From Lepidurus packardi (lineage: Eukaryota; Arthropoda; Branchiopoda; Notostraca; Triopsidae): a stretch of DNA of 64,000 nucleotides. Shown piece by piece: positions 35,401 to 64,000 of this stretch. Every line of letters starts with the position of its first letter. The first letter of the stretch is position 1. The translations under genes and the position numbers were made by a program. The notes beneath the pieces are model-generated. The model did not search any database. It was not told the DNA's origin and was given only the letters and a program-made list of their open reading frames with translations. The stretch covers positions 9,858,001 through 9,922,000 of the forward strand of contig JAKZAN010000005.1 in NCBI GenBank assembly GCA_023053545.1. The letters are read 5' to 3'.

Positions 35401-36804
35401 AATAAGGGGGCGGGGTTAAGTTTAAGTCTGGGCACATGAGTAGGCCTACTCGTTATAGACTTGCCTGACTTGAGACCAAAACTAAAAGTCGATTTTGGAA
35501 GTCTAAGTCGACTAGCTAAAGAAAACGCTTATAAACACGAACGCGGCTATGATTTGAAGGTTTAGCTTTAAAGATAATTAAGGCGTAAATACCTGAGACG
35601 TTGCTGGGCAAGTTGAGACTGGTAGTACTGCCACTGGTACTACTACTGCTCGAGCTGCTCGGTACTGAAGTACACAAGGTGGGCCACGCATCCCGACTGC
35701 CGCCACTTGGCGGCGAATTCGAAGGTAAGACGGGCAAACTTTGAGGCAAAGGAGGGGAACTGGAAGGTTTCCGGTTCTCCTTATTCAAGGGTACCAAATA
35801 CAAAAGCTGCTCATGCAAGCTTCTCTCGTAATCCGTATGTCTCCCTTGTTGCATTTCTTCCTTGGTGAAACTAGCCGCATCATCTCCTACGGACATACAA
35901 AGGAATTGTTGATATACAATGTTAATATGCATATCATTTTCGTAGAATGACTGATACGGGTCCGTACCTATCTCGTGGAGGTACATGCAATCAGGCTTAG
36001 GACAGCTCTGATTCTTCATAAAGTGGGAACAATACTTGGTGGTACCCAAAGAGGCTCGTATTGTTTTCCCCTCTACGGTAATGTTGTTGACAGCTTGAAT
36101 AGCTCGTAAGGCATCTTCTCCTTTTATGTAAGTCACATAGGCACTCGCACTCGGACCCTAATTAAATATACGCTCAGTTAAACCCAGCTTAAATTTTAAA
36201 ATTTCCAGACGAACGTCACCTGATTGCCTGCATACTGTGTGCTGTGGTTGATGACGACTTTATGGATCTTTCCAAATTTCCCGAAATATTCATGCCGCTT
36301 CAGGACCTAACGAAGTCGGATTTCAATGACAAAACTCGAAGTTAATTACCGAAACAAAGGAAGGGTGCGAACTTACGTCTGGGTCTGCCAATCGTGAGGA
36401 AAGACCAACCACAAAGACCAAGTTTTTCTGGACGACTCGCACGTTGGCTAAATGCTTCCTGCTCTCGGTGACTTTTTGCTTTCTTTGTTGATCTTTCTGT
36501 CGTTTCTCAGCTTTAATCCGGGCCATTTCTTCGGTGCTTAGAGGCTTAAAATCCGCAGGGTTTTCTGGATACGCTTTGCGACACGCTGGACAGAGCCCAT
36601 TTTCGTCAGTTCGAATACGATGCCAGCAGAAGCGACAAATCTACCAAGGGTGTAACCACTTATAGCAGTTATTTGGCGTCAGACAGAAAGGTATACCTGG
36701 TAGCCACAAGTGCAAGGAAAGAAACTCATGTCGTCCATTTCCAGAGGTTCCATACACAAGGGACATTCCACAGGCTCATCTGTGCTAGTACTCAACATAG
36801 ACAT
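32401..36804 (-). CDS. CNOT4: CNOT4, RING E3 ligase of CCR4-NOT
   Basis: Eleven coding exons on the minus strand: 36804-36697, 36640-36377, 36306-36220, 36157-35968, 35886-35593, 34780-34495, 34428-33755, 33678-33469, 33238-33020, 32881-32471, 32408-32401; 916 residues against 575 in human. Residues 14-57 form the C4C4 RING finger (CPLCMEPLE to CPACRK), followed by a basic coiled stretch, an RRM (KNLVFVVGL onward), and a CCCH finger (KYCSHF to PDCMYLH). The rest is Ser/Pro/Asn-rich, with the conserved FDPFHETQKALAEMLEKE block and DWQDSLHTLFPN. Known role: ubiquitin ligase that couples stalled ribosomes and mRNA decay to CCR4-NOT. The last coding piece is 8 nt (completes Asn, then Met, stop). 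The 81-bp intron after the CCCH finger is open in frame. A probable non-coding first exon ends near 37339 with donor GTACGT, and the acceptor lies near 36862. Confidence 0.95.
33367..33455. repeat. GTTAAGTGAA microsatellite-like repeat
   Basis: The word GTTAAGTGAA recurs with small changes about six times within the CNOT4 intron between 33469 and 33238. It is non-coding simple sequence. Confidence 0.8.
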
Positions 36805-37855: not shown

Positions 37856-40800
37856 TCAACCCTTCCAATTCCATATTGCTGCACTTAACGTAGCTGTCAT
37901 GACAAAAAACGAAGCGAAAACGGACGAAGCTGCCGATTTAAAACTAAACGTCTTAATAAACGCTTCGGAAGTACTCCAAGGATCGGAGCCATCATCGAAA
38001 TACATGGGACACTGGTCTCCTATACGAAATATTCCAACGATAAGTAAAAACCCATACAAAAAAGGGACGCAATTTACGTTCTCTTTCGTATTCCTGCATA
38101 TTTAAAGACACGGAGGCGCCTTCTGTATAATTGAAACTCGTCACATCTTGATTAACTGTGCAATACGGTCCTAAGGCTTGCGACATCAAGATCCCTGTCA
38201 AATCCGAACGTTGGTACACCTAATTCAAAACATAATACAAATCAAAGTTCAAAAGGAGAATAAATTTATATTAGAATTTTACCCAGCAACGATATTTGCT
38301 AAAAGCATCCAACTCGTCGTACGTGATAAGATACGACTTGAGATTCTCTTTCCAAAAACCAACACATTTCATCTTATAGTCGGGATCACCTAAAAAGCCA
38401 TTCGTTAAAACTCATACCCATACCAACTGGATTAGTGTGGCAAAAGCGTTGCAAAAGCATTGCAAAAAGCGAAGGGGTAAAGGGATACAGGTTTAAAAGC
38501 GCAAATGATTAATAAAGCGACTATGCATGAAAAGCGTAAAAGCATAAAAACACTGAGTGGTAAACTCTACTGTAAATGTCCACAGGCCGCCCTTTGTAAT
38601 CCACAGACAAGCAGTAGTTTTCATCAATCCAAATTTCCTTTTGTTCGTGATCGCAGACTGAAAAGTCGGAGATATTCTCTTTACAGTATACATCTGGGCG
38701 AGGGGACTCGGTAATGCCGCCCAAGATACGCGTCTCAAAAGGGATATCGCCTTGTTGTTCGAACCGGAATTTGCCAGCGACTGGGCAGCGAATGGGAACG
38801 GGATCCTTAGCTGTGAAAAGGTATATAAATAGACGCTATGAATCAATAACGTCGCTTTTTTCTCTTATCAATCCACTTGTCGCCTTCTGGGTATCCTTTG
38901 CCACCTTGAACCTGTCGTTTGGGGGGTGAAGAAGAGAAGACGGGGAAGGAAGAAGAAGGGAAACGAAACTGTTGCGATCCATCTTACTGTAAATGTCAAG
39001 TGGCCGCCCGTACATGTCCACAGAAACGCAATGTTCAGTATCAATCGTCAACTCCTTTTGTTCGGGGTCGCAAACAGAAAACCTTGATATGCTTTGATAG
39101 CAACTGACGTTGGGACGTGGCGAATCAGTTATACCACCGTAAATACGCGTTTCGAAAGGCGTGTACCCAATTTGTTGGAAACTGAAGAAGCCTGCTACGG
39201 GACACCGTATTGGCTCGGGTTCTTTCGCTTAAACGTGATAATGAATTGACACGTAGATTAACTCGATATTTAAGTAATTAATTCATGGGGACATCAATAA
39301 GTTATTACGGAAGATGGAAACTGATTATTTACCTAATAGTAAGTCGTACTTCCATTGTTGTTTGCCAGGAAATTGCACCCAGGAGCAAACGGTATGGAAA
39401 TCGTCTTTAATAAGCGCAATGCCTTTGCGGTAACGAATGATGTTATGATGGCGAGGTACAAAATCAAAGCAGATGAAATCTTTTTGGCTGGAAAAAAAAT
39501 GGGTACGTTAATTTCTTTTGTTTCTTCACTGTATTAATAATCTTTTGTTTATACCAGCCATCAACGTTCTGACGCGTCATGAGGATTCTCGAGTCCCTTG
39601 TTTCTTTGCAAACGTAGACAGTTTGGCGATACCTGCCCTCATCTGGATACCAGGTTTCAATTATGTGAGTTTGGTTGATAAAAACGTCCGCGTCAATGTT
39701 GGCTGTGTTAATCCAATAGCCTGAGAAATTGCTAGGTAGATTGCAGCCTGGGGTCACGATCTCCGATTTCACTAGACAAAAATAAGCAATTGAAACTTCT
39801 CCGTACAATGCGCCAAGATTACGATCGCTTTTACCTGGGTTCAGACGATAACGCTCTGGACTTTCTTCAGGAGACTTTAAAGTGTTGCACTCGGGGGTGA
39901 TGGAACCTCCCATGTATAAGTCGTCGTCACGATTCTTGAGGAAGCAACGAAACTTTTCGTCTTTACGAGATTCTTTGGTGTTGGCTACAGCAAAGAAGTG
40001 GTTTTTGCCCACGAACCAATCTCCCAAACAACTGAACTCCACGTCTTACCGAGAAGAAAAGAGCGCGCAAGTTAAACACAATTGAATTTGAAGCCGGGGG
40101 AAAGTTTTGGTACTTCAAGGACAACTTACTTCCGTCAAAAGTTTCCGACATGCCTTGGCATTTACGGTAAGTAATGTTAAATTTCTGATTGGTGATCAAG
40201 AACTGAGATCCTGCAGTTTGACAGGAATGAATGTATGCATCAGGGTTATTGCACTCGCCAGTGAAACGAAATCGGTTTTGATAAGCGAAATTCCAGACGC
40301 CTTCCAAGCCAGAGCGGCAATTAACTGGTACGAAGTTTTCAGCAAACAAGGTAATGAGCTGCTGATCGGGGTTTATGCCGCGGCAGATGTCGTCCAAGTT
40401 AGGAATTTTGCCAGATAGGATATTTTTGCACCCCGCTGAAAGATAAAACAAACATGTTAGTTTATATAACGAGGTAGAAGTGCATAAGAATAGGAATTTA
40501 CATTCAATCTTGTCCAGGATGTTAACAGTGCGAACGAAGAATTGAACGCAGTGATAACAATTCGTGTTTGCCTCATGGAAAAGAAAGGAGAAGTTGACAT
40601 GGAGATGGTTTCGTGATTCTAAGCAATTGCCTCTTCCAGACATGGAATCTGCGTTAATCTCTGTGTTACTGTACTCGCCATTTTCCCGGTAAAACCACGA
40701 CCCTCGCACTATATTTGGTATATGGCATTGCTCATCCTTCGCTTGGCCACCTGTATGTGTAAGTATCAGATCGAGAAGTTATGAGTAAGTGGAAATTATG

Positions 40801-40884
40801 GCGGATATTAGTCTTACCTGGAATGTTGCTCAACAGGAAACACAAGACAGAAAAGATCCCCCAGATAATACTTGCTAATTTCAT
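37856..40884 (-). CDS. Secreted/anchored Cys-rich DUF7042/7043/7044-type protein
   Basis: Minus-strand exons: 40884-40818, 40750-40502, 40435-40130, 40044-39835, 39771-39555, 39487-39333, exon A 39227-38988, exon B 38810-38571, 38389-38283, 38219-38078, 38019-37856. With one of A or B the product is 618 residues; with both, 698. It opens with a signal peptide (MKLASIIWGIFSVLCFLLS) and ends with a hydrophobic segment (SSVFASFFVMTATLSAAI) followed by WNWKG, suited to a membrane or GPI anchor. Between lie repeated Cys-rich modules with wording such as GSWFYRENGEY, LEGVWNFAYQNRF, FSCLGDWFVG, SGYWINTANID and RCPVAGKFRF. I recognise the layout as the arthropod family annotated in databases as DUF7042/DUF7043/DUF7044; its function is unknown to me. 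Exons A and B are 68% identical and both phase 1-1. The gene is head-to-head with the Shisa-like gene (378 bp apart). Confidence 0.82.
38571..38810 (-). other. Alternative exon B of the DUF7042-type gene
   Basis: A second 240-nt exon, same phases, coding for KDPVPIRCPVAGKFRF to KGRPVDIY. Its donor TACA/GTAGAG is weaker than that of exon A and its acceptor is TTCACAG. Entered from the preceding exon, both A and B begin with Ala-Lys-acidic-Pro, which suits either exon being chosen alone. Confidence 0.8.
38988..39227 (-). other. Alternative exon A of the DUF7042-type gene
   Basis: A 240-nt exon, entered in phase 1 and left in phase 1, coding for a module from KEPEPIRCPVAGFFSF to YGRPLDIY. It is the upstream member of a homologous exon pair; the donor is TACA/GTAAGA and the acceptor TTTAAG. 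Confidence 0.8.
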
Positions 40885-45266: not shown

Positions 45267-47907
45267 CTATAAGCGTGGTCGAATAACAACTTTGTATGGC
45301 ATAGGCATTCCAGCAAATCCTCCTGGTGGTCCTTCCAAACCAACATTTTTACTCTCAGGAGCCAAAGTAAACTCAAACTGCTGCAGAAAATACGTCAAGA
45401 AAATAAATAGTCCCATGCGGGCAAAATGTATCCCAATGCACTGTCTCTTTCCTACACAAAAATCGTAACTTTAAATTATTATCCTATGTCAATTATCCTT
45501 GTATACGCACCAACTAGAAAGGGCATAAATCCTTCGGGTGGCATAACCAAATCTCCCTCTTTATTTAAAAAATGTTCTGGGTAAAACTCTTCTGGTTTGG
45601 CCCAATATTTGGGATCTCGGTGAACCCGCCTTAGAAATGGTATAATCAGTGTCTCCTATAAAGTACCAGAATATATAGTAGTAGTAATTTTCATTATTTC
45701 AAACTATAAAAAGTAAAAATTTAAGACATGTTTTCATATATCCCTTATTTAATATATTTTTAATTACTTGAGGAATTATGTAGCCGCCAAGTTCAATGTC
45801 CGATTCAGTATAATGAAAAACTCCAAAAGGCGCTATATCAGCAAACCTTTGCACTTCGTGAATTACAGCTTCCGTGTATGGCATCCTAACAATTTTATAA
45901 TACAGTGTTTTACCATAATTTTTTTTAGTATAATTAAATACCTGAAGCGGTCGTCAGAACACGGAGTTCGTTCTCTGCCTACAATGTGGTAAATTTCTTC
46001 CCGTACTCTGTCTTGAACTTCAGGATATTTGGACAGAAGCAAAATAGCCCAACGGAGTGTAATAGCGGTTGTTTCACCTCCCGATGCAAATAAATCTCTG
46101 ATCGAAACAATCAACTGTGTATCTACAAAATTTAAAATAACTTCTGAACGTAGTATTTCTTACATTCTGGTTCTCACGTGTAAATGTAGTGTCCGGTTTT
46201 GTCTGCTTTTGCATTTCTACCAAGAAATAGTCAATATAGTCGCGAATATTTTCTGGGTTCAGTGTGGCTTCGTGCTCTTTGATTTCCCTCTAGTAAAACT
46301 TGTTTCTAAGAATAATTCAAGTTTAGTTTTAGCTACACAAGTTACCTCCACATAAGATTCCAAGTTAAGAACAGTCTTTTTTAGAGTATCCATGCCTATG
46401 AGGCTGTCTGGCAAGCGCTTTGAAAGCCAAGGGAGAAAGCCTAGCACTCCCAGTCGAGAAATCGTACTCACAATGCATTCCAAGTTTTCCATCAGGCCCA
46501 GGAAAAACGGATCACCGTATTCCATGCGTTTGCCGGCTACCATAGCCCACAGCGTGTTTATCGTACTGATATTCAAATCCAAGCTCAGATCCATAGGCTG
46601 ACCGGCTTTGGCAAGGAAAACTTCGCCCATGGCTTTGGCCTCTTGAATCATGTGCCCTTCCATAATTGATTTGCCCATACCCAAATCCTGTAAATGTTTC
46701 GCTGCGAAACGACGGTGCTCATGCCATAAACGTCCACTCGGGCTTAGTAAACCTGAACAATTACATCTTAGAACTATGGTTACTACTGTAATTTAAATGG
46801 ACGGATATATAAGACATGTCCACTCTACCATGTCCTCCGCGGCTAAGCTCCTCGAAGATGATGAAAGGTGGCCGATTGGTGACGGTTCGCGCCTGGAAAG
46901 CTTGCTTAATCAGGTTGTAATCCGTTATGACAACAGTAGACCAAGAACCAAGTTGCAGGCTAAACACAGAGCCATAGCGTTGGCGTAGTTTTTCGATACT
47001 CTTGTGTAGGTAGCCGGCGTCCAAGAAAGGCATGTAACCCAACAAAGGCAGACCAATGGGACCTTTCAAGGGCAAAAATAAATACAGAAAATTGAACCAG
47101 CAAACTTAATATCGTGCTCTTTAAATTATAGCTGCACTTCTAGTATCCATCCACTTTTTTTGAAAAAACATTAGACTTGTATTACAATGCCCCGAAGTTA
47201 GTGTATAAATCCGGTGTATTTCAACAATGAAGGAACGGGGACAAGGAATATATTCAGGAGTTTAAAAAAATCAACAAAGTTATTTGTCTTATTCGAGCTA
47301 AATTGCACTCCTCGAATTGTTCTTCTGCTCGTAAGTTAATTAAACTACGTGCATATTCATTAATTAAATGCTACTCCCGCTTATTTTTAGTGTTCTCTTC
47401 TCTTTTCAAGTACAAATAAGTTACACTATTATAGAGTTATGCATAAATTCGGAGCTTATTAGTTATCGTGTAACCTATGTCACTCCCGACCGATTATTAC
47501 TGCTACAATATCTAACCTGATTTCAACTTTTTTCTTCCTGTAGTTACTATAATTGCCTTTCTTATCTTCCGGTCGCCATGTCAATGTCTCTCAGTGTTGC
47601 TTAAGTTGCGGGAAAAATAAATAATAAATAAATAGGCCTTCCTTTGCAATTGTTGAGAAAATTCTTCGCTAAAAAGATCGTTTTCAATTTCAAAAACACG
47701 TTTCTCCCTTTTGGAACACAAGTGCAGAAATTCATTGTTACAAGCTAATGAATAAAATTAATCACTGAGGTATACGAAATACAGCTAGTTTTACGTAGAA
47801 TCTTTCGCATGAACATTTTCTCTTTTACCTGGAGGTGTGTTTCGCTTATTCTTCCAATACAACACTGAATACAAGAAAGCCACCACAAAAATCAACAATG
47901 GAAGCAT
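45267..47907 (-). CDS. Cytochrome P450 1, CYP2 clan, intact
   Basis: Eight minus-strand exons: 47907-47829, 47062-46829, 46752-46346, 46289-46178, 46122-45942, 45885-45768, 45655-45511, 45451-45267; 486 residues, a normal P450 length. It has an N-terminal membrane anchor (residues 1-18), the PPGP hinge (25-28), helix-C WHEHR (114-118), the I-helix oxygen-binding AsxGGETT (290-296), ExxR as EVQR (348-351), and the heme loop [10 protein letters not shown] with ligand Cys430. It is therefore a microsomal monooxygenase with all key residues. Wording and exon plan place it in the CYP2 clan; crustacean CYP370-like is a guess. The substrate is unknown (xenobiotics or endogenous lipids/steroids are possible). 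A TATAAAAG box with the conserved core block lies 69 bp upstream of the ATG. It is a partner of the oppositely oriented P450 2 in an inverted duplication. Confidence 0.95.
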
Positions 47908-47975
47908 TGTTCACTAGTAAAAATTTGATTATGATTTCTTCAACGACGTAACTTCTTTAAGTAAAGCCTAAATCT

Positions 47976-47998
47976 ACCTACACTGGCGGCTTTTATAG
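47976..47998 (-). promoter_or_regulatory. Core promoter block of P450 1
   Basis: On the minus strand it reads CTATAAAAGCCGCC, then GTGTAGGT: a TATA box followed by the AGCCGYC...TGTAGGT block shared by all P450 copies here. It ends 69 bp before the ATG. Confidence 0.7.
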
Positions 47999-48179
47999 TG
48001 GAACTTCTACCGTCGAAGGATGGCAAAAGGGAGTTAATTTATAAGAAAGGCGTCGAGAGAATCCCTCACCTGTCTACTCTCAAGAGACAAGCCCTTTAAA
48101 TCCATGTTTGCTTGTATTCGTAGCTCTCTGACCTCCCGTAATTCTCAGCTCCTTAGGTCACAACCTTAACCTTTCTCTG

Positions 48180-48540
48180 GGAATTATACAAGGTCAGGTT
48201 GCAAGGCCCTGCGATCGCAGATCTAGGGTCAGTCATCTATTCCCTGCCACGATGGATACCTCGGAAGGAGACCCGACGGAGCTTTCGCTCCTCTCTGAGG
48301 GAGATCCCTGTGGCACAGCTCGCCTCGGCCCGCAACACGGCGGGATCGGTACAGGCTCAACGATACCCTCTCCATTTTTATATTTTCCTCTCCTTTCGTA
48401 CTTACTCCATTGTCATTTCTACCTTTGGAACTTGGGTGCTGTTCGCGGTTCCGCATCCTTTGGGGTTCCAAAGCCTAGCCGGAGGCAATGCGGTCCTCTA
48501 CGAATTGGCTGCGCCCTACGGACCCGGATTTGTCAAACCT
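48180..48540. repeat. GC-rich segment of unknown type
   Basis: This stretch is markedly richer in G and C than its AT-rich surroundings and is open for over 110 codons in two plus-strand frames (48199-48543, 48252-48659) without a recognisable domain. Its right end (from about 48474, GGAGGCAATGCGGTCCTCTA) recurs at 60388. It may be part of an inserted mobile element. I do not recognise the family. Confidence 0.45.
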
Positions 48541-49350
48541 TGAAGAATTCCTCGGGATGCTCGAAGATAAAAACAATCATACTTACGTTTAAATTTTTGT
48601 TGGCCTTCATCTTTTCAATTGTAGTTCGCTGGCAGACAGGTGTGGAGCTATTACAATAAATTGGATAAACGACGGTAAACAATTCCAATAAAGTAATTGT
48701 CTTTCTAGGAATTTACCGTGTACTTAACAGATGCGAAGACTACTTTGACCCGGAAATGTACCATATGTATTGGCATAACAAAGGGGTATACACATGATGA
48801 GAAATTATAGCGACAGTTTTACACTGCATTTAAAACAACTAAACGGAGCTAAAACATAAGTTCCGTTGAAGATATTTATTTAAGAAGCTATTGAACGGAA
48901 TATAAATTTTATGACGGAAAGAATTTTGAGTTCGGGTGTTACAAAATACGTCAAGTGTATGTAAATCACGAATAAAATTAAGAAGGCGAAGGAAAATCTA
49001 CCTTTCTAGCTAGAGATACTAGCAAACCCAGAATTATTAGTATTTGTGCAAGCCAAAAGTATTAGTGATAGAATTTATAGAAGGCATTACAACCGGAAGG
49101 GAAAAACGGTAAGACGGCCCACACGATTTTTGTTGTTATGAAACCTATGGGCGTTTTGTTCCTCTTTTCCTGTCACGTGTACTGACTTTTTGATCCTGTA
49201 TCCTTTTCACCAGCAGTCGAGTTCGAACAGACTAAGTATTCGTATGTTAGTGAACACGTATTCGGTGGAGGGTTTAGTTAGTTTAATAAAAGGTGGTTAC
49301 ACCATGAAAATCAAAGAATCGTGTGCCTTGAATACAAGCATTTTCTATAA
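48541..49350. other. P450 spacer, duplicated elsewhere
   Basis: Intergenic DNA between P450 1 and the relic that follows. 48541-48850 matches 60455-60753, and 48780-48965 is a more distant match of the spacer at 55930-56120. It therefore belongs to the duplicated P450 unit rather than being unique sequence. Confidence 0.7.
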
Positions 49351-50068
49351 TTAACGTGGTCCAATAACAAATCCTGCTGATGGTCCTTCCAAACCAACAT
49401 TTCTACTCTCAGGAGCCAAAGTAAACTCAAACTGCTGCAGAAAATACGTCAAGAAAATAAATAGTCCTATGCGGGCAAAATGTATCCCGGTGCACTGTCC
49501 CTTTCCTACACAAAAATCGTAACTTTAAAATTATTATCCTATTTTAATTATTCTCGTATATGCATTAACTAGAAAGGGCATAAATCCATCGGTGGCATAA
49601 GCAAATCTCCGTCTTTATTTTAAAAATGTTCTGGGTAAAACTCTTCTGGTTTGGACCAGTATTTGGTATCTCGGTAAACCCGCCATAGAAATGGTATAAT
49701 CACTGTCTCCTATAAGTAGCAGAATATATAGTAGTAGTAATTTTCAATATTTCAAACTTTAAAAGTAAAAATTTAAGACTGATTTTCATATAACCCTTAT
49801 TTAATATATGTATAATTACGTGAGGAATTGTATAGCCGCCAAGTTCAATATCCGATTCAGTATAATGAAGAACTCCTAAAGGCGATATATCCTCAAACCT
49901 TTGCACTTCGTGAATCACAGCTTCCGTGCATGGCATCCTCACAATTTTACAATACGTCTTATACCTTAATTTTTTAAATGTATTATAAAATACTTGAAGC
50001 GGTCATCAAATCACGGAGTACGTTTTCTGTCCACGATGTGGTCAATTTCTTCCCCTAACCTGTCTTGA
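49351..50068 (-). pseudogene. Degenerate P450 3' half (exons 5-8)
   Basis: On the minus strand this aligns by eye with exons 5 (end), 6, 7 and 8 of P450 1. Exon 6 is still readable ([19 protein letters not shown], 49935-49829). Exon 7 has a frameshift around the HFLN region and has lost its donor GT. The heme loop reads GKGQC, so the conserved Arg is gone. The AGMPMPYK stretch near the C-terminus is deleted. The copy stops abruptly near 50068, inside exon 5, at AT-rich foreign sequence. It lies between the heads of P450 1 and P450 2. Confidence 0.9.
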
Positions 50069-50159
50069 ACTATATATATGTAACTATAACTATGTATATG
50101 TTCCATTTTCACTGGAACTTATGTTTTTAGCTCCGTACAGCTGTTGTTCTAAATCCAGT

Positions 50160-50572
50160 ATAAAGCTGTGTTCTAGTTGTGTGCCCCATTATTGTGCTAA
50201 TATATAGGTTAAGTCTCCAGGCTAAAATAATCATGGGGTCCGTTAAGCACACAATGCACTTATAGAGAGATAATTACTTTATTGGACTTTTTTTCGTTTA
50301 TACTATTTATTTTAATAGCCCTAGACGTGTCTGCCAGTGCGCTACAACTAAAAAGGAAAATGCGACAAGACGTTGAATCGTAGTATGAATGTTTCTTTAG
50401 GAGCCGTCAGTGAGGGTAGTTTTTCGCTTAACTTGAGGTCGTTTAAGAAGTCATAATCAAATTTGTTAATACTAATAAACAATGATTTCAATGTTGATTT
50501 GTGTGGTGGCTTTTTTGTGTTCGGTGTTGTATTGGAAAAATAAGCGAAACACACCTCCAGGTAAAAGAGAGA
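50160..50572 (+). repeat. Segmental duplication, copy 1 (P450 2 head)
   Basis: About 410 bp covering the upstream region and first exon of P450 2, nearly identical to 60816-61233. It includes the long word GTTAAGTCTCCAGGCTAAAA and the conserved core block. Confidence 0.9.
50396..50418 (+). promoter_or_regulatory. Core promoter block of P450 2
   Basis: It reads TTTAGGAGCCGTCAGTGAGGGTA and ends about 63 bp before the ATG at 50482. It corresponds to the TATAAAAGCCGCC block of P450 1 with a degraded TATA box. Confidence 0.65.
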
Positions 50573-52996
50573 AAGTGAAAGATTCTCAAAACTAACAGTA
50601 TTTCGTATAACTCAGTTATTTAACATTTCTCACTCTTGACAATGTATTTCTGCAATGTATTGAAAACAATGTATTGAAAACAATGTATTTCTGCTCGAGA
50701 AGGCGAATACGTTTACGTTCTTTCCTTTATGAAAATGTGGCTATACCGCTTGTGTTCATAATGGAAAATACGTGTTTTTGATATTGAAACGAATATTTTA
50801 GTTAAAACTTTGTAGACGAATAAAGTTAAAACTTTGTAGACTAAGTCAACAATTGCCAATCAAAGCCTATTCCTTTCTTATATTTTTACTCACCAAATTT
50901 GCAAGACAGACATTGGCGTGGCAAACAGGAAGATGAGAAAGAAAATTACAGCAACTGAATTAGAGATTGAGTTAGATGAGTTAGCGATTGTAGCAGAAAT
51001 AAACGAAACGGAAAGTTTAATTAAAATTACGAGCAGAAGGATACAGTTGGCAAAGTCCAATTTAGCTGGAGTAGGAAGAATACATTTGTTGTAAAGAAAT
51101 TTAAAAAAGCACGTATAGCAGAAATATTTAAGAGACCGCGATATTAAAGTTGCAGGCTTGATTTGATTTCTTTATTTCTGCGCTTGAAAAGGTCCCATTG
51201 GTCTGCCCTTGTTGGGCTACATGCCTTTCTTGAACGCCGGTTACCTGCCCAAGAGTATCGAAAAACTACGCCAACGCTATGGCCCTGTGTTTAGCCTGCA
51301 ACTTGGTTCTTGGTCTACTGTTGTCATAACGGATTACAACCTGATTAAGCAAGCTTTCCAGGCGCGAACCGTCACCAATCGGCCACCTTTCATCATCTTC
51401 GAGGAGCTTAGCCGCGGAGGACACGGTAGAGTAGACATGTCGTATATATCCATCCATTTAAATTACAGTAGTAACCATAGTTCTAAAATGTAACTGTTCA
51501 GGTTTAGTAACCTCGAGTGGACGTTTATGGCATGAGCATCGTCGTTTCGCAGCGAAACATTTACAGGATTTGGGTATGGGCAAATCAATTATGGAAGAAC
51601 ACGTGATTCAAGAGGCCAAAGCCATGAGCGAAGTTTTCCTAGCCAAAGCCGGTCAGCCTATGGATCTGAGCTTCGATTTGAATATCAGTACGGTAAACAC
51701 GCTGTGGGCTATGGTAGCCGGCAAACGCATGGAATACGATGATCCGTTTTTCTTGGGACTGATGAAAAACCTGGATTTCATTGTGAGTATGGTTACTCGA
51801 CTGGGAATTCTAGGCTTTCTCCCTTGGCTTTCAAAGTGCTTGCCAGACAGCCTCATAGGCATGGATACTCTAAAACAAACTGTTCTTAACTTGGAAGCTT
51901 ATGTGGAGGTAACTTAGACCGATCTTGCATTATTATTAACAAGAGCTTCCTAGAGAGAAATCACCGAGCATGAAAACACACTAAACCCAGAAAATATTCG
52001 CGACTATATTGACTACTTTTTGGTAGAAATGAAAAAGCAGACCGAACCTGACACTACATTCACACGTGAGAACCATAAAATCAGAAAGAATACTTTAAGA
52101 AAATACTTTAAATATTGTAGATACACAGTTAGTTGTTTCGATCAGAGATTTATTTGCAACGGGAGGTGAAACAACCGCTATTACACTCCGTTGGGCTATT
52201 TTGCTTCTGTCCAAGTATCCCGAGGTTCAAGACAGAGTACGGGAAGAAATTGACCAAATCATTGGCAGAGAACGAACTCCGTGTCTTGATGACCGCTCTA
52301 GGTATTTAATTATAAGTAAAAAACAATAAGGTATAACAATGTATATTGCCAGGATGCCATACACGGAAGCTGTAATTCACGAAGTTCAAAGGTTTGCTGA
52401 TATAGCACCTTTTGGAGTTTTTCATTATACTGAATCGGACATTGAACTTGGCGGCTACATAATTCCTCAAGTACATAAAATAGATTACATAGGGGATGTT
52501 TGAAAAGCAGTCTTAAAATTATATTTATTTAAGTTTGAAATACTTCTTTAACACTTTTTTAAATACTTCTTTAAGTTTGATACTTTTACTATACATTTCG
52601 GGACATTTAGGAGACACTGATTATACCGTTTGTAAGGCGGGTTCACCGAGATCCCAAATACTGGGTCAAACCGGAAGAATTTTATCCAGAACATTTTTTA
52701 AATAAAGAGGGAGATTTGACTATGCCATCAGAAGGATTTATGCCCTTTCTAATTGGTGCCTATACAAGAATAATTAACATACGATAGACATTTAACGCTG
52801 TTGTTTTTGTGCAGGAAAGAGGCAGTGCATTGGGGAAAACTTTGCCCGCATGGGATTATTTATTTTCCTTACGTGTTTTCTACAGCAATTTGAGTTTACT
52901 TTGGCTCTTGAGAGTCAAAATGTTAGTTTGGAAGGATCACCAGGAGGATTTGCTGGAATGCCTATGCCTTACAAAGTTGTTATTCGACCACGCTAA
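50482..52996 (+). CDS. Cytochrome P450 2, CYP2 clan, intact
   Basis: Eight exons: 50482-50560, 51192-51425, 51502-51908, 51954-52065, 52121-52301, 52353-52470, 52611-52755, 52815-52996; 485 residues. Exon lengths equal those of P450 1 except for the last (182 against 185 nt). The anchor starts [18 protein letters not shown]. Key motifs are intact: PPGP, WHEHR, I-helix ATGGETT, EVQR, and the heme loop FLIGKRQCIG with Cys430. It is very close to P450 1 through exons 2-7 (for example [21 protein letters not shown]), so this is a recent inverted duplicate; the N-terminal exon and tail differ more. It is on the plus strand, head-to-head with P450 1 across the degenerate relic. Substrate unknown. 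Confidence 0.95.
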
Positions 52997-54239
52997 TTCT
53001 TATGTCTTTCACAATTACTAATAATACTGGGTTTGCTAATATCTATAGTTTACAAATTTAATTAAGGGTTTTCTTACAACGCTAATATTATTTGGTATAC
53101 AGCAAAGGGTATTTACCTACTGACTTGAAAAGCACCTTGCAGTGTAAAAGGAAGATGGAAAATTCCGACCGTTTATTTGATTCTGTGTTATTTTTGGGCG
53201 ACAGGTATTTTAATGATAATAAGAAATAAGTTCAACGAATCTTACGTTTTGTCTTAATTTTTTTTACCTTTAATTGTACACTCATCACTTAATTCTTTTG
53301 TGATGGAATATCTCCATAATGCATGCCAGTAGAAAACGACCCACTGACCTATTAGCCTCTAGGAGCAGAAATGTTAGTTTGGAATGACAGCTCGGGGGTA
53401 CTTACCTTTCCCGTTCAAAGTTGTCATTCGACCACGAATTACAATACATATAGCAAAGGATTTTAAATATGACGATGCTGTAAAATACGTCTCTATTCTA
53501 GCTTAGCCTTTTTTTGCAGCGGAAGAGATATCATTAGTACACTGTTAAAAATTCCCCCCTTTTATAGGGGGAAAAAAACCGAAGGCACCGGATAGGGGTT
53601 TCTTTAATCCCCTAAAATTTTAATGGGGATTCAATCATATGAATGGTATATAGGATTCTATATAATCCCCCAAAATCGGTATTTTCCAACTCTCAAAAAA
53701 GCGTGGTTTTAGCGCCATTAATAATTTTAAATTCTCTCATTTTCGGCGGCTGAAATATTTATTGGGTATTAATTTTGAAGCTGTATATTTTACTGATTAA
53801 TGTTTTTATTGCTGTAAAAACTTTTGTCTCCTGTGTACATTCAAAGCCAAACATTCATGTCAAAATATAAAAGACAAGATGCAAAAACATGGATAAGTCA
53901 AAATATAAAAGTGCAAAAACATGCGTAAAAACCATACACATACAAGAATCATAAGTAATCAACAATCACTTTACTAAAGTCATCGTCATACAAGTCAACC
54001 CATGAAATACTCATACACACAGTAGTTCATTAAATTTTTAAAATGCATTATCACGAACAATGACGAACACTTTTTTGCGCATTTTTATGATCGGATAACG
54101 AACACCTAACAGAACCAATAGGTTCTCTGGTTGAAAACCTGAAGGTCAAAAACGACACATTTGTGTCATATTGTTGCAAAACGTTCTTCGGAGAAAAAGG
54201 ACAGAAAACGTGTCATAAATAAATAAATACATAAATAAA
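52997..54239. other. P450 2 3' flank and repeat-rich spacer
   Basis: Starts with an inverted copy of the P450 1 3' flank, followed by the tail scrap and then hairpin-rich sequence at 53545-53690 (CCCCCC...GGGGG and GGGGTTTC...ATCCCC). No gene was seen in 53700-54239. Confidence 0.6.
53340..53490 (+). pseudogene. Scrap of a P450 last exon
   Basis: On the plus strand, words equal to the end of the P450 4/5-type last exon survive with frameshifts: a NVSLE-like stretch, then TTTCCCGTTCAAAGTTGTCATTCGACCACG (split here as TTTCCCGTTCAAAGTTGTCA then TTCGACCACG), then the downstream flank GACGATGCTGTAAAATACG also found inverted after P450 4 (near 56245). Only about 100 bp of coding relic remains. Confidence 0.75.
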
Positions 54240-54576
54240 TGAAGCCTGCAACCTTAATATTGTGCTCTCTAAACTATTGCTCATAAATTTATGGAACTCT
54301 TTTTTGCACTTCTATTATCCATCCACTTATTATTTGTTTGCATAAAACAAAAAGACTTTTATTGCAATGCCTGGAAATTAGCGTATAAACCAATTATATT
54401 CAACAATAAAGGAATGACCAAAAGCAAACTATTCATAAGTTTTTTTTTATTTCTTTTAACTAAAAGTTTGTTCTTCTTACTTGAGAGAATTTGGACTCAG
54501 CCAGCTATTTTCTTCTGCTCGTAACTTCATGAAAATTCTTGCATATAGCTTTAATTAAACTACTTCGTTGTCGTTT

Positions 54577-54589
54577 ATCAATCTCTAAC
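54577..54589. repeat. Left target-site duplication of retroelement
   Basis: ATCAATCTCTAAC, identical to 55203-55215, directly flanks the inserted non-LTR element. Confidence 0.9.
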
Positions 54590-55202
54590 AACTCCAACTC
54601 TACAAAAACTCCAACAAGAAGATATTAAAAAACCAATTAAACAAATCATTTTGCTGAAATGGTCAGAAGAATGGAATACACAAACCTCGCCCCTCCACGA
54701 TTTAAACATCAATCCTTACTCAAAACCTATTTGCAAATCTAGTCATGCACACAAAATCATATCTACACTTATCAAATTAAGAACAACACACTTCCCCACA
54801 AATCTAACATGATTTGTCCTTGCACTAACTACTTCTGCCAAACATTAACTCGTGTACTTTTTCATTGCCCACTGTTAAACAAACTTAGAGCCATCTTACT
54901 TAGAACACTAAGTCAAAACAAACTACATTTCAAACCCGAACAAATCTTAACTAACCAAAAAACCTTAATCCCAATCTCCAATTATATCAATTCCGCAATA
55001 AAAAATCTTACAACTTTAAAATAAAAAAAAACACTGTTCCCATATAACAAATGCGTTATTTACAAGTTCCTTTTAATCAAATGACTTTTTTTCTGCATAT
55101 AATGTACCTGGTACGAAAGCCTGTGTATCAATAAGAAATAGTCAATAAAGAAGAGGCAACGATCTATGCTCAAGCCCCTATTAAATTGAAAAAAAAAAAA
55201 AA
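54590..55202 (+). mobile_element. 5'-truncated non-LTR retrotransposon
   Basis: A 613-bp insertion bounded by a 13-bp direct repeat and ending in a poly-A run (55189-55202) just after an AATAAAG-like signal. The 5' part reads in one frame as LLKWSEEW... IISTLIKLRTTHFPT, and after a frame change as CPCTNYFCQTLTRVLFHCPLL. These resemble the extreme C-terminus of ORF2 in jockey/CR1-like elements (the LRTGH and C-C-H-C region following reverse transcriptase). It has frameshifts and lacks the catalytic domains, so it is dead on arrival. It sits in intron 1 of the P450 relic, in the orientation opposite to it. Confidence 0.88.
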
Positions 55203-55215
55203 ATCAATCTCTAAC
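55203..55215. repeat. Right target-site duplication of retroelement
   Basis: ATCAATCTCTAAC immediately after the poly-A tail, a perfect match to 54577-54589. Confidence 0.9.
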
Positions 55216-55712
55216 TCAATCTCTAATTCCATTATTGTAATTGTCTTTCTCGTCTTCCCGTCTGCCATGTCAATGTCTGTGTTGCTAATTTGACAAGCAA
55301 AAAAAATATAATAAATAACTTGGTCTTTTGTTTGCAATTGTTGATTTAGTCCTGGATTCGCCTACAAAGTTTTCACCAAAAATTGTTACAATGCCAAAAA
55401 CACGTTTTTTCTTTTATGAACCCAAGTGTCTACATGTTTGTTGTGTCGAAATACATTCTTACAATATATTGCAGAGAACATTGTTACTAGTTACTAAAGT
55501 TACATAACTGAGTTTTATTAAATACGGTTAGTTTTACTTAGAATCTTTCACTCTTCAATTTCTCTCTTTTACCTGGAGTTGTGTTTCGCTTTCTCGTCCA
55601 ATACAAAAACGAACCCAAGAAAGCCACCATACAAATCAACAATGGAAGCATTGTTCGTTAGTAAAAACTGGATTAGGACTTCTTCAACGACATTAAACTA
55701 AGCGTAAAATTT

Positions 55713-55735
55713 ACCCACATTGACGGCTCCTATAG
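55713..55735 (-). promoter_or_regulatory. Core promoter block of orphan exon 1
   Basis: The minus strand reads CTATAGGAGCCGTCAATGTG then GGT, the same block as the working P450 genes, 61 bp upstream of the orphan ATG at 55651. Its retention suggests the orphan exon may still be transcribed. Confidence 0.6.
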
Positions 55736-56444
55736 AAACATTCATACTACGTTCATCCGTCTTTTCGCCTTCACCTTTTCAATTGTAGCTCACTGACAGG
55801 CGCAAGTACAAACTTAATAGTGTAAACGAAAGTGACGTAAAAAATTCAAATAAATTAATTATCTTGCTGTGAGTGCATTATTTGCTTAACTGATGCCATG
55901 ATTATAGTAACCTGGAGGTTTACAATACATTGGCACAATAACGGGGCATATAAATGATAAAACTAGAACAGTTTTATATTGCATTCAGAAGTTCTGTACT
56001 GAACTAACAACGTAACTTCCAACGAAGATATTTATTTCTAAAAGCTGTTGAACAGAATAAAAGTCTGACGGCGGAAAGAACTCCGAGTTTGAGTGCTACA
56101 AAATACGTAAAGTGAATTTATATTGCGAACAAAATTAGGATGGCGAAGGAAAAACGTGCAAGTTCCACCGAATATATTAATTATATCAATTTTGCTGCAA
56201 AACAGCAAATTAATTAAATTTGTTAACTAGGGATACAGTCGCATTTTACAGCATCGTCATCACAGTAGATATGTTTTACACGGTATAACATAGAATAACA
56301 TAGTACCCACAGATCCTCTTGAGACCAAGAAAGTAGATACAAAACCCTTATCTGTGTTATCCTAATGTGAAACCTATATGATGTGATCATCATGTGATCA
56401 TCTTTTCTATATTCGTCATGTGGTCATCTTTGCTATATTCGTAG
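55736..56444. other. Spacer between P450 4 and orphan exon 1
   Basis: About 700 bp, nearly identical in its left two thirds to 61496-61860, the equivalent spacer of the next unit. 56240-56440 is extra sequence absent from the other copy, including repeated words such as CATGTGATCAT and CATGTGGTCAT. Confidence 0.75.
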
Positions 56445-59292
56445 TTAGCGTGGTCGAATGACAACTTTGTATGGGAAAGGTATTCCAACAAGTCCACCGG
56501 GTTGTCCTTCCAAACTAACATTCGCGCTCTCAGGGGCTAAGTCAAATTGAAATTGCTGTACAAAGTTGGTTAGAAAAAGAAATAGCCCCATGCGGGCCAT
56601 ATTCTCCCCAATGCAATGTCTCTTCCCTACATGTACAAAAAATATGAATAAATATTACATCTTTATCCGACGTTAATTATTTATGTACACACCCACTAGA
56701 AACGGCATAAATCCCGCACTGGGAAGAGTAAATTCTCCCCTTTCGTTTAAAAAATGTTCTGGATAAAATTCATCTGGATTGGTCCAGTATTTGGGATCTC
56801 GGTGAACCCTCCTCAGGAACGGGATTATTAGCGTCCCCTGTACAGTGTTCCAAAGTATTATTGTTATTACTAATACTAGATACGTATTAAACAGTAAACA
56901 TTCAGCGATTTTTTTCAATATTGATTCTTTACATATACATTATTGTTAATTACTTGTGGAATTGTGAAGCCGCCGAGTTCGACATCGGCGCTTGTGTAAT
57001 GAAAAATTCCAAAAGGCAGTATGTCACCAAACCTTTGCACTTCATGTAGAACAGCTTCCGTGTAAGGCATCCTAACAAGTGTACGACACATTTTAAATAC
57101 TTAACATATGTTTTCTGAAACTAAAATTACTTGGACCTGTCGGCTAGGCACGGAACTCGTTCTCTGCCCACAGTTTTGTCAAGTTCTTGGTGCAACCTTT
57201 CCTGCACCTCAGGAAATTTGGACAAGATCAAAATAGTCCAACGCAGTGTCACCGTGGTGGTTTCACCTCCTGCCGCAAATAAGTCTCTGATGGAAACGAT
57301 CAATTGGGTATCTACACAAAACGATATAGTGTTTTCAAAAAATAAATGATTTTGTGTCTCTCACATGTGAATGTAGTTTCAGGTTTTGTCTGCTTTTGCA
57401 TTGCAACCAGGAAGTAGTCAATATAGTCGCGAATGTTTTCTGGGTTAAGTGTGTCTTCGTGCTCTTTGATTACTTTCTATTACAAACTGTATTTAATAAA
57501 AGTTATCAGGTCGATTGATCGACGTAAATCTATACCTCCACAAATTGTTCCAAGTTAAAAACAGTGTTTTTTAGCGTATATTTGCCTGTGATGCTGTTTG
57601 GCAAGCATTTTGCAAGCCAAGGGAGATAGCCAAGAACTCCAATCTGAGAAGCAGTAGTCACAAGGAAGTCCAGGTTTTTCATCAGGCCCAGGAAAAATGG
57701 GTCATCGTATTTCATGCGTTTGCCAGCTACCAACGCCCACACCGTATTTGCCATACTGATATTCAAATCGAAGCTCAGATCTATAGGCTTGCCTGCTTTC
57801 GCAAGGAAAACTTCACTCATGGCTTGCGCTTCTTGGATAATGTGTTCTTCCATGCTAGATTTGCCCATTCCCAAATCCCGTAGATGTTTCATGGAGAAAC
57901 GACGTTGCTCATCCCATAAGAGTCCACTCGAGCTTATTAAACCTTAGACAGTTAGGTTTCATTTCTATAGATGCGATAGATAGGCAAGGTACTTCTGCTT
58001 TACCATGGCCACCGCGACTGAGGTAGTCGAAGATGATGAAAGGTGGCCGATTGGTGACGGTTCGCATCTGGAAAGCTTGCTTAATCAGGTCGTAATCAGC
58101 AATGACGACACAAGACCAAGACCCGAGTTGTAGGCTAAACAACGAACCATAGCGCTGACGTAGTTTTTCAATACTCTTGGGTAGGTACCCGGTGTCCAAG
58201 AATGGCATGTAGCCCAACAAAGGCAGACCAATGGGACCTTTACAAATGAAACATGCGCAAACTATATTTGACCTTTTGTTTTAATCCCTTTGTTATCCTT
58301 TGCAATTATTCAAACGTCTTTTTTATCCTGTTTTATTGAAACGTTTACAATCGACTCATTCGATCTGAATTAGGTTTCAGCGTATGGTCTTCTTCCGCTC
58401 ATGGAAACATTAATTTAATTACAACGACTGGATAACTTGCTTCGTTTGTTCTTTTCATGCATGTGTATGACACTAATTTTTACCGGGGAAGTACCCATTG
58501 CAGTTAAACAAAAAGAAATTCCTAGTACGGGGATGTTGTTTGTGTGTGCTGCTGCTGAATATTCACTTCCTATGAAATATAGACAATAGAGCCACGTTTG
58601 TTTCAGATTTTTACCTGTATAACTCTAACTACAGTTATTCTATTGATAAATTGTTCCAGAACTTCAATTATTACTTACATTTTCTGATGACTCATTACCA
58701 TTGACTGATACCATTGACTGATACCATTAAACTAAGTATTTGTAAATTTAATCAAAAGTCTATAAAATTTATATGCCCGCATATAGCAATAGCCCAATTT
58801 GAGTAAAGAACGAATTCAAATTGTAGTTTTATACAACTTTTTTTCTAAATATAGCACTTTCTTCATTTCAAGCATTTCTTCATTTGAAGCATTTCTTCTC
58901 CAACTCTAACTTTTCCTATTTCGTTTTCGTCCTTTGTATGGTTATACCGCCATTTATTGCTTGGAACTGTCTCTAGCATCGTCTTCTTTTAGAATCATTG
59001 CTATAATTGCCATTCCCTTCCGGTCTGCTTCAAGAAAATCTAATTTTAACCCCACCACCGCAGCAGGAACAACATTCTGTAAACTTTGTCATATATTGTA
59101 TAAAAATTACGAAAACGAAGACGGGCAAGAGCTTAGCGCACGCTGTTATATAGAATAAAGATGTTGTATGAAAACGCAGTTAAATTTATTGAAATTTTTC
59201 TGTTTTATTTTACCTGGAGGTGCGTTTCGCTCATTTTTCCAATACCATAACAAACAAAAAAAAGCAGTCATACTGATCAACCACGGCAGCAT
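56445..59292 (-). CDS. Cytochrome P450 4, CYP2 clan, intact
   Basis: Eight minus-strand exons: 59292-59214, 58237-58004, 57942-57536, 57476-57365, 57311-57131, 57071-56954, 56837-56693, 56626-56445; 485 residues. The anchor is [18 protein letters not shown], followed by APPGP. Helix C reads WDEQR, the I-helix AAGGETT, then EVQR and the heme loop [10 protein letters not shown] with Cys430. Exon lengths are the same as P450 2. It is closer to P450 5 than to 1 and 2 (both share the [11 protein letters not shown] and [14 protein letters not shown] wording), so it represents a second subgroup of the cluster. Intron 1 is long (976 bp). Its 5' end lies 54 bp from a variant core block (TATA replaced by CTAG). 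Numbered 4 by position; the relic at 54240 takes place 3. Confidence 0.95.
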
Positions 59293-59345
59293 GCTCCAGT
59301 TAAAATTCACTTGAACTTTTAGACTTTAAGTTAACCGTAAGTGCG

Positions 59346-59366
59346 ACCTACAAAGACGGCTTCTAG
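59346..59366 (-). promoter_or_regulatory. Core promoter block of P450 4
   Basis: The minus strand reads CTAGAAGCCGTC then TTTGTAGGT, 54 bp upstream of the ATG. The TATA part is changed to CTAG, while the AGCCGTC and TGTAGGT parts are kept. Confidence 0.6.
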
Positions 59367-59599
59367 TGACAGCACTAAGCTACATAGCATCCTCCTTCAG
59401 CTTTTAAGTGGTCTTTTCGGGTAATACTGACTCAGTATTAGGTTTAAAACGAAGGACAGGAAATAAGATATTAGTTGGTTAGAATGTATTGTTGATATTG
59501 TGGCAGTTTTTGCATAAGCTTATTTGTCAAGGGAAGTCCCGATGCGTGAAATTTTCTTTAGCGAATTGATAGAGACATCACATGAAAATTATCCATCAC

Positions 59600-60753
59600 C
59601 AAGTGCAGCGCCTCTATAGAAGACTGGAAGAAAGTAAAATATTCGCTAATGAGTTTAAAATAAGCATATATTATATATTCGGTTAAAACTAAACATTTTT
59701 TATGCTTTCAAATATTTCTTTAATGAATAATTTGTATTTTAGATGTGCATTTAAAGGGGGCCATACAATGTTTCAAGTTCCAAAAATGTACAAGTAATTT
59801 GAAAGATTGACTATGGGTCACTTTCTACTGGCATGTATTTTGGAGATTTCATGTATTTTGGAGATTTTGGAGAATCAAATAAATGGTCGGAATTTTCAGT
59901 CTACCGTTTACATTGTAAGGTGGTTTTTCAGGTTACATACGTTAACTATAATTCGAGGTATACATAAAATTATTAGCGCTGTAAGATACACATTTGGTTA
60001 AATTTTTAAGCTAGAGATATTAGCAAACTCGTTATTAATATTTGTGTAAGCCACAAGTATTAGCGTGGTCGAATAACGACTTTGTAAGGCATAGGCATTC
60101 CAGAAAATCCTCTTGGTGGCCCTTCCAAACTAACATTTTTACTCTCAGGAGCCAAAGTAAACTCAAACTTCTGCAGAAAATACGTCAAGAAAATAAATAG
60201 TCCCATGCGGGCAAAATGTATCCCAATGCACTGTCTATTTCCTACATAAAAACCGTAACTTTAAATTATTATCCTATGTCAATTATCCTTATATACGCAC
60301 CAACTAGAAAGAGCATAAATCCTTCGGGTGGCATAACCAAATCTCCCTTTTATTTAGAAAATGTTCTAGGTAAAACTCTAGGTAAAGCCGGAGGCAATGC
60401 GGTCCTCTACGAATTGGCTGCGCCCTAGGGACCCGGGTTTGTCAAACCTTGAAGAATTCCTCTGGATGCTCGAAGATAAAAACAATCATACTTATGTTTA
60501 AATGTTTGTTTTAATTCATCTTTTCAATTGTAGCTCGCTGGCAGACACGTTTGGAGCTATTACAATAAATTGGATAAACGACGGTAAACAATTCCAATAA
60601 AGTCTTTCTAGAAATTTACCGTGTATTTAACAGATGCAAAGACTACTTCGCCCCGGAAATGTACCATATGTATTGGCATAATAAAGGGGTATGCAAATGA
60701 TGAGAATTAGAGCGACAGTTTTACACTGCATTTAAAACAACTAAATGGAGCTA
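59600..60753 (-). pseudogene. Deletion-fusion relic of a P450 1 copy
   Basis: 59600-60060 matches the 3' flank of P450 1. 60061-60385 holds the last exon (heme loop GNRQCIG, intact tail to VVIRPR) and part of exon 7. At about 60385 the match jumps straight to sequence corresponding to 48474-48850, upstream of P450 1, so exons 1-6 and part of 7 are deleted. The junction lies next to a repeated CTAGGTAAA, which suggests a microhomology-mediated deletion. Confidence 0.85.
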
Positions 60754-60815
60754 TATTTAACATTTTATATATATATATATATATAGTATATATTTTTTAC
60801 ACTTTTTTATTTATA

Positions 60816-61233
60816 ATATAAAGTTGTGTTCTAGTTGTGTGCCCCATTATTGTGCTAATATATAGGTTAAGTCTCCAGGCTAAAATAATCATGGGGTCCG
60901 TTAAGCACACAATGCACTTATGGAAAGATAATTACTTTATTGGACTTTTTTACGTCATTTTCGTTTATACTATTTATTTTAATAGCTCTACATGTGTCTG
61001 ACAGTGCGCTAAAACTAAAAAGGAGAATGCGACAAGACGTTGAAGCGTAGTATGAATGTTTCTTTAGGAGCCGTCAGTGATGGTAGCTTTTCGCTTAACT
61101 TGAGGTCGTTTAAGAAGTCATAATCAAATTTGATAATATTAATAAACAATGATTTCAATGTTGATTTGTGTGGTGGCTTTTTTGTGTTCGGTGTTGTATT
61201 GGAAACATAAGCGAAACACGCCTCCAGGTAAAA
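60816..61233 (+). repeat. Segmental duplication, copy 2 (P450 2 head)
   Basis: Near-identical to 50160-50572: the upstream region, the core block (61063-61085) and the first exon of P450 2. The match stops just after the donor GTAAAAG. Confidence 0.9.
61149..61227 (+). pseudogene. Orphan P450 exon 1 (P450 2 type)
   Basis: An intact 79-nt first exon ([20 protein letters not shown]... PPG) with donor GTAAAAG, but no downstream exon 2 on the plus strand within the window. The core block lies 63 bp upstream. It faces the opposite orphan exon at 61333-61411. Confidence 0.85.
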
Positions 61234-61332
61234 GAAGAATATTGTTACTAATGACTAAAGTTACATAACTAAGTTTTATGAAATACGGTTAGTTTTACTT
61301 AGAATTTTGCACTTTCGATTTCTCTCTTTTAC

Positions 61333-61411
61333 CTGGAGTTGTGTTTCTCTTTCTCGTCCAATACAGCAACGAACCCAAGCAAGCCACCATACAAATCAAC
61401 AATGGAAGCAT
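61333..61411 (-). pseudogene. Orphan P450 exon 1 (relic-3 type)
   Basis: An intact first exon on the minus strand, nearly identical to 55573-55651, with donor GTAAAAG and the core block at 61473-61495. Downstream of it lies only the other orphan exon in opposite orientation, so no P450 can be made. Confidence 0.85.
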
Positions 61412-61472
61412 TGTTCGTTAGTAAAAACTGGATTAGGACTCCTTCAACGACATTAAGCTAAGCGTAAAATTT

Positions 61473-61495
61473 ACCCACATTGACGGCTCCTATAG
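61473..61495 (-). promoter_or_regulatory. Core promoter block of second orphan exon
   Basis: Identical to the block at 55713-55735, 61 bp before the orphan ATG at 61411. Confidence 0.6.
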
Positions 61496-61908
61496 AAACA
61501 TTCATACTACGTTCATCCGTCTTTTCGCCTTCACCTTTTCAATTGTAGCTCACTGACAGGCGCAAGTAGGGCTATACAAACTTAATAGTGTAAACGAAAG
61601 CGACGTAAACAATTCAAATAAAGTAATTATCTTGCTGTGAGTGCATTGTTTGCTTAACTGGCGCCATGATTATATTAGCTTGGAGGTTTACTATACATTG
61701 GCACAATAACGGGGCATATAAATGATAAAACTAGAACAGTTTTATATTGCATTCAGAAGTTCTGTGTTGAACTAATAACGTAACTTCCACCGAAGATATT
61801 TATTTATAAAAGCTGTTGAACAGAATAAAAGTCTGACGGCGGAAATAAAAGTCTGACGGAGGATCACATGATGTGATCATCATGTGATCAGCTTTGCATT
61901 ATTCGTAG

Positions 61909-63721: not shown

Positions 63722-64000
63722 CTTTACAAATGAAACATACGCAAACTATATTCGTCCTTTTCTTTTAATCTCTTTGTCACCCTTTGCAATTATTCAAACT
63801 TCTTTTTTAGCATATTTTATCAAAACATTTACACTCGACTCATTCGATTTTAATTAGGTTACAGCGTATGGTCTTCTTCCGCTCAACAAAACATTAATTT
63901 AATTACAAGGACTGAATAGCTTGTTTCGTGTGTTCTTTTCATGCATGCGTGTGACACTCTTTTTAGTGTAACGGGGAAGTAGCCCTTGCAGTTAAACAAA

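Follow-up and report, generated by a model that had tools for sequence, protein, structure and literature searches.

A gene on the minus strand of Lepidurus packardi, at ~40.9 to 37.9 kb of the window analysed here (64,000 nt, C4:9858001-9922000, in a genome of 108.6 Mb), contains two adjacent exons, A and B, of equal length and similar sequence, raising the question of whether a transcript carries one of them, both, or any combination. Coordinates below are positions in the window unless a contig is named. The gene model, built by hand, comprises eleven exons including A and B, and its introns are bounded by GT-AG in all cases (10/10). Either A or B gives an uninterrupted frame from ATG to TGA that encodes 618 residues, while inclusion of both (698 residues) or of neither (538 residues) also keeps the frame.

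The first exon (E1, 40818..40884, minus strand like all others) holds the start codon and, by eye, a signal-peptide-like stretch (MKLASIIWGIFSVLCFLLSNIPG), followed by E2 (40502..40750) with a DUF7044 (PF23071) domain, E3 (40130..40435) and E4 (39835..40044) with the N- and C-terminal halves of a first DUF7042 (PF23069) domain, and E5 (39555..39771) and E6 (39333..39487) with the N- and C-terminal parts of DUF7043 (PF23070). Pfam searches over E2-E6 recovered these three domains in that order, all above cut-off (85.6 bits for DUF7044, 137.3 for DUF7042 and 85.7 for DUF7043 in the isoform with B). E6 precedes the pair and ends in phase 1, after which come exon A (38988..39227) and exon B (38571..38810), two versions of the N-terminal half of a second DUF7042-type domain, whose shared C-terminal half (profile positions 56-113 for E8+E9) begins in E8 (38283..38389) and is completed by E9 (38078..38219). 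The last exon (E10, 37856..38019) encodes small residues, then a hydrophobic tail that by eye resembles a GPI signal, and the stop TGA. The gene product is probably a secreted or cell-surface protein and possibly GPI-anchored, and the earlier proposal of a secreted or surface protein agrees with this signal-peptide-like start and GPI-signal-like end, both judged by eye. We take LP06548p to be the label for this gene's family; literature searches for that label and, by name, for DUF7042-7045 found no paper.

Several other features of the locus were observed. Between E4 and E5 the 63-nt intron (39834-39772) is in frame and free of stops, lying within one open frame (40045-39464); a transcript that retained it would gain 21 residues and no stop. 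A plus-strand frame with its ATG at 41263 (MEVSKRSFSLF...) faces the gene start (40884) head to head, and at a distance of 379 bases the two may share a promoter region. The minus strand at 35516-36640 carries gene pieces that match RING (zf-RING_4, 37.8 bits) and, slightly below cut-off (19.7 versus 20.7), RRM, and that resemble CNOT4. By eye, four groups of closely similar P450-like exons, lying in both orientations, can be recognised at 46259-63764; they start near 47105 (-), 51188 (+), 58280 (-) and 63764 (-); the one exon scanned matched p450. Between P450-like exons, at 60835-61721, are nested inverted repeats with arms of 113, 115, 99 and 31 nt that are 78-84% complementary, perhaps a mobile element.

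Exons A (39227-38988) and B (38810-38571) have the same length, exactly 240 nt, and are in phase 1 at both entry and exit, as the first-pass annotation had described; both are bounded by AG and GT (TTTAAG/CG...ACA/GTAAGAT for A and TTCACAG/CT...ACA/GTAGAGT for B). Its adjoining exon ends (39333 and 38389) also agree with our model, as do its joins from E6, which give Ala-Lys-Glu-Pro with A and Ala-Lys-Asp-Pro with B, and its statement that double inclusion keeps the frame. The A-B join codes Thr-Lys-Asp-Pro with no stop, and either exon joined to E8 gives Ser-Asp-Pro. The reported 55/81 identical residues were reproduced when the two join residues are counted (53/79 internally), and nucleotide identity is 155/240. 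Chance similarity was ruled out, as the ungapped BLOSUM62 sum of 283 far exceeds that of 10,000 shuffles of B (mean -85, sd 20, maximum 0). Substitutions fall 19/12/53 of 79 by codon position (chi-square P 3e-8), with dN 0.28 and dS saturated, and since most of the differences are at third positions, coding sequence has been maintained in both exons for a long time. The pair is an old duplication in which both copies were retained under coding constraint, and no leftover similarity from the duplication rises above shuffles in the flanking introns. A search of the 108.6-Mb genome with exon A (E <= 0.001) gave at least two matches, A itself and B.

The proposal that differences concentrate in the middle and towards the C terminus was not supported: residue differences form 39 runs versus 35.9 expected, with 11 in the first 40 residues and 15 in the last 39. 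Four cysteines are identical in A and B, and each exon encodes one N-glycosylation sequon, NVS at residue 39 in A and NIS at residue 45 in B, six residues further on.

The domain to which these exons contribute bears most directly on how they may be used. Alone, A reaches 16.4 bits over DUF7042 positions 1-50 and B 16.7 bits over positions 2-50, each below the 27-bit cut-off; they fit the family to the same degree, and neither has the look of a decayed copy. E8+E9 alone score 32.9-33.8 bits over positions 56-114. When A is joined to E8 and E9 the match rises to 52.5 bits in one continuous stretch over positions 1-113, and with B in its place to 53.5 bits over positions 2-113 (cut-off 27; the joined strings also carried the first residues of E10). 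With both A and B present the 64.5 bits are split over two stretches, the best of which is B with E8 and E9. A and B each supply, as alternatives, the N-terminal half of one and the same DUF7042-type domain, and the shared E8 and E9 complete it. The domain is whole with either exon alone; with both, A is left as an orphan half, and with neither only half a domain remains, so that the allotment of one half-domain to each exon supplies a protein-structural reason against joining A to B. The first DUF7042 domain of the gene is likewise split by an intron between its halves, E3 and E4. Scores of this fourth domain against DUF7045 (PF23073) were 17.5 and 17.8 bits, and 25.4 for the whole B isoform, all below the cut-off of 27. 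A search of 177,635 distinct PDB sequences for a solved structure of the domain in its B form gave no match at E values of up to 10.

The genome carries at least three additional members of the family, at C1:818-831 kb, C4:8.526-8.545 Mb and C5:4.985-4.993 Mb, and their pieces aligned by tblastn (E <= 0.01) are 26-37% identical. This count is a lower bound, since the genome search with DUF7042 failed to list A, B and E8 of the window gene itself and half-domains can thus be missed. In the C5 paralogue the fourth domain is DUF7045, split at profile positions 47/46 across two exons at a point corresponding to the cut between A and E8, and its N-terminal half (DUF7045 1-47, 41.6 bits) is present in one copy. 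A profile of N-terminal halves run against 957 minus-strand open frames of the C1, C4 and C5 regions recovered one copy each in C1 and C5, a result given by construction since these two had gone into the profile, plus a single weak candidate in C4 (E 0.048). No convincing second copy appeared when each N-terminal half was searched against all 957 frames. Two weak matches of the C1 and C5 half-domains to other frames, at C1:821491-821691 (E 0.063; no half-domain cysteine pattern and no Pfam match) and C4:8524957-8525073 (E 0.039; no half-domain cysteine pattern), were set aside as chance. The C1 and C4 candidates have no DUF7042 or DUF7045 match and rest on a CPxxGxF-like signature; among the three paralogues just the C5 half has Pfam support, so a single N-terminal half is firm solely for C5, where it is shown, and is likely for C1 and C4. 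Beyond this genome, pattern searches matched 213 stretches in genome_contigs and 16 in viral_contigs, none confirmed as relatives, both collections being poor places to find an animal gene.

These observations make it probable that A and B arose long ago by tandem exon duplication and are subject to mutually exclusive splicing, E6 being followed by A or B and then E8. Mutual exclusion had been the favoured reading of the first-pass annotation, and the half-domain anatomy, in which A or B alone completes the domain, argues against the constitutive tandem that it had left open alongside a cassette. Constitutive joining of A to B is unlikely and exclusion likely because both exons together would leave an orphan half and neither would leave half a domain, and because the C5 paralogue has a single N-terminal half; exclusion leaves an intact protein either way. 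We infer that exactly one of the two is used per transcript. Every transcript would then join E6 to A or B and continue into E8, yielding two 618-residue isoforms that differ solely in the N-terminal half of the last DUF7042-type domain. Against exclusion, double inclusion and double skipping both preserve the frame, and an extra repeat of a half-module might be tolerable in the protein.

Three general means of enforcing exclusivity can be considered from the gene structure. Enforcement by frame or NMD is rejected, as the two exons together add 480 nt (2 x 240) in frame with no early stop. Steric hindrance is unlikely, the A-B intron being 177 nt long versus 58-85 nt for introns away from the pair. 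U2/U12 incompatibility was also discarded, both exons having GT-AG ends of ordinary U2 look by eye. Regulated splicing would also fit the lengths of the three introns around the pair: at 105, 177 and 181 nt they exceed all seven others of the gene, which span 58-85 nt.

We then considered what the introns themselves might contribute. A stretch of the A-B intron (38811..38987) at ~38929-38865 is complementary to ~38515-38412 in the intron between B and E8 (38390..38570), with a duplex core pairing 38887-38865 with 38515-38495. The predicted duplex has an energy of -65.7 kcal/mol versus -47.2 (sd 5.0) for shuffles, of which 0/500 were as low, and it has the lowest z (-4.0) among the gene's 45 intron pairs. 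Elsewhere in the window a lower z was found at 1 of 315 places with the same geometry, within the inverted repeat at 60.9-61.7 kb. By raw energy, uncorrected for composition, 51 of these 315 places pair as strongly, so the signal resides in the composition-corrected score. Folding 39343-38380 or 39227-38390 brings the duplex out clearly (47.4 and 44.3 expected pairs), but it is lost in the longest stretch folded, 39487-38283 (9.6 expected pairs), and given this dependence on the stretch folded we treat it as a lead. It is possible, from this one sequence, that the pairing loops out B and favours the A-E8 join. The opposite pairing, which would loop out A, is weak against shuffles (P 0.10; z -1.2, 14/100 shuffles).

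Under such a scheme E6-A-E8 would be favoured when the introns flanking B pair and loop it out, and E6-B-E8 would be made otherwise, the latter expected because the 3' splice site of A (AAG) is the weaker of the two. That an RNA switch of this kind selects between two membrane-near half-domains of a surface protein is a speculative idea that we consider doubtful. If true, it would move an N-glycan by six residues, alter exposed residues, and produce two binding faces from one gene in a family of unknown function.

Among the alternatives, the one that survives best keeps the exclusion and attributes it to a trans-acting factor that binds the intron downstream of B, not to RNA looping; this is a variant of our preferred explanation, so its chances do not add to those of the others. 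The 181-nt intron contains 7 GCTTTT versus 0.69 expected, a number reached by 0/2000 dinucleotide shuffles, and 8 YGCY, a count attained by 0.5% of 181-nt stretches sampled in the window. YGCY is a muscleblind-type motif. The YGCY excess is modest against dinucleotide shuffles (P 0.024), both motifs were picked after looking at the intron, and they are candidate sites read from sequence; a trans-acting factor is possible but less likely than not.

A second alternative drops strict exclusion and takes A or B to be an ordinary cassette, one exon being constitutive and the other at times added or swapped. The frame would allow any combination, and A has a 3' splice site (AAG, 13/20 pyrimidines) weaker than that of B (CAG, 15/20), though by the standard of this gene the acceptor of A is unexceptional, E4 also having AAG and E2, E8 and E10 having poorer tracts (11/20 versus 13/20). 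An added second exon would, however, disrupt the order of half-domains, and A and B are equally well kept, so we regard a cassette as improbable. Slightly harder still to credit is that both exons are constitutive and joined, giving a protein with an extra half-module (N-N-C). Its frame is preserved at 698 residues, its join reads Thr-Lys-Asp-Pro and its 177-nt intron should be easy to splice, yet it would leave A a partnerless half-domain, whereas the gene's other DUF7042 copy runs from N-terminal to C-terminal half, as does the fourth domain of the C5 paralogue, in which one N-terminal half was found. That either exon is a relic no longer spliced in is hardly believable given that both are open, share the same four cysteines, have equal profile scores (16.4 and 16.7 bits) and are under strong coding constraint.

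Mutually exclusive splicing of A and B, our preferred reading, would give this gene a simple two-isoform system. Ancient exon pairs that coding constraint has preserved usually lie in regions where the alternative forms have different jobs, and this pair points to where specificity may lie in the DUF7042/7043/7044 family, whose function is unknown. Compared with the DUF7044-DUF7042-DUF7043 proteins in Pfam, the gene is far above the cut-offs for all three domains and differs in that the N-terminal-half exon of its fourth domain is duplicated; this fourth domain occupies the place of DUF7045 in the C5 paralogue, yet scores as a second DUF7042.

In the portions of the literature searched, no mutually exclusive pair was named in a DUF7042-type family, and the term DUF is absent from the main text of a study of Daphnia splicing, where mutually exclusive exons (MXE) account for 2% of events (PMC7318467). 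Human mutually exclusive pairs are described in outline as mostly ancient and tissue-specific (PMC9741552). Pillmann et al. (2011, PMC3228551) recognise such exons by three features: comparable length, conservation of splice sites and reading frame, and sequence similarity. Like the pairs treated in that text, A and B are equal in length, splice-site type and phase and are homologous, and at the level of the genome they are likewise internal and part of one structural unit. On the fly X chromosome these features occurred in 90 of 16,180 non-exclusive exons, from 6 of 1,705 genes (PMC3228551), a rarity that, on those figures, provides a good prior for mutual exclusion here.

The closest parallel for the intron pairing comes from MXE clusters in Dscam, MRP, Mhc, srp and 14-3-3zeta, for which Ivanov and Pervouchine (2018, PMC6071210) outline competing intron pairings and, using the same kind of shuffle test, a tendency for the internal intron to pair with the right-hand one. 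Here too the internal intron is predicted to pair with the right-hand intron beyond shuffles. Unlike the competing pairings in that account, we found one strong pairing, which would loop out B, and a weak one that would loop out A. The locus thus probably adds one more mutually exclusive exon pair, in a protein family without known function, to a kind of splice switch already described.
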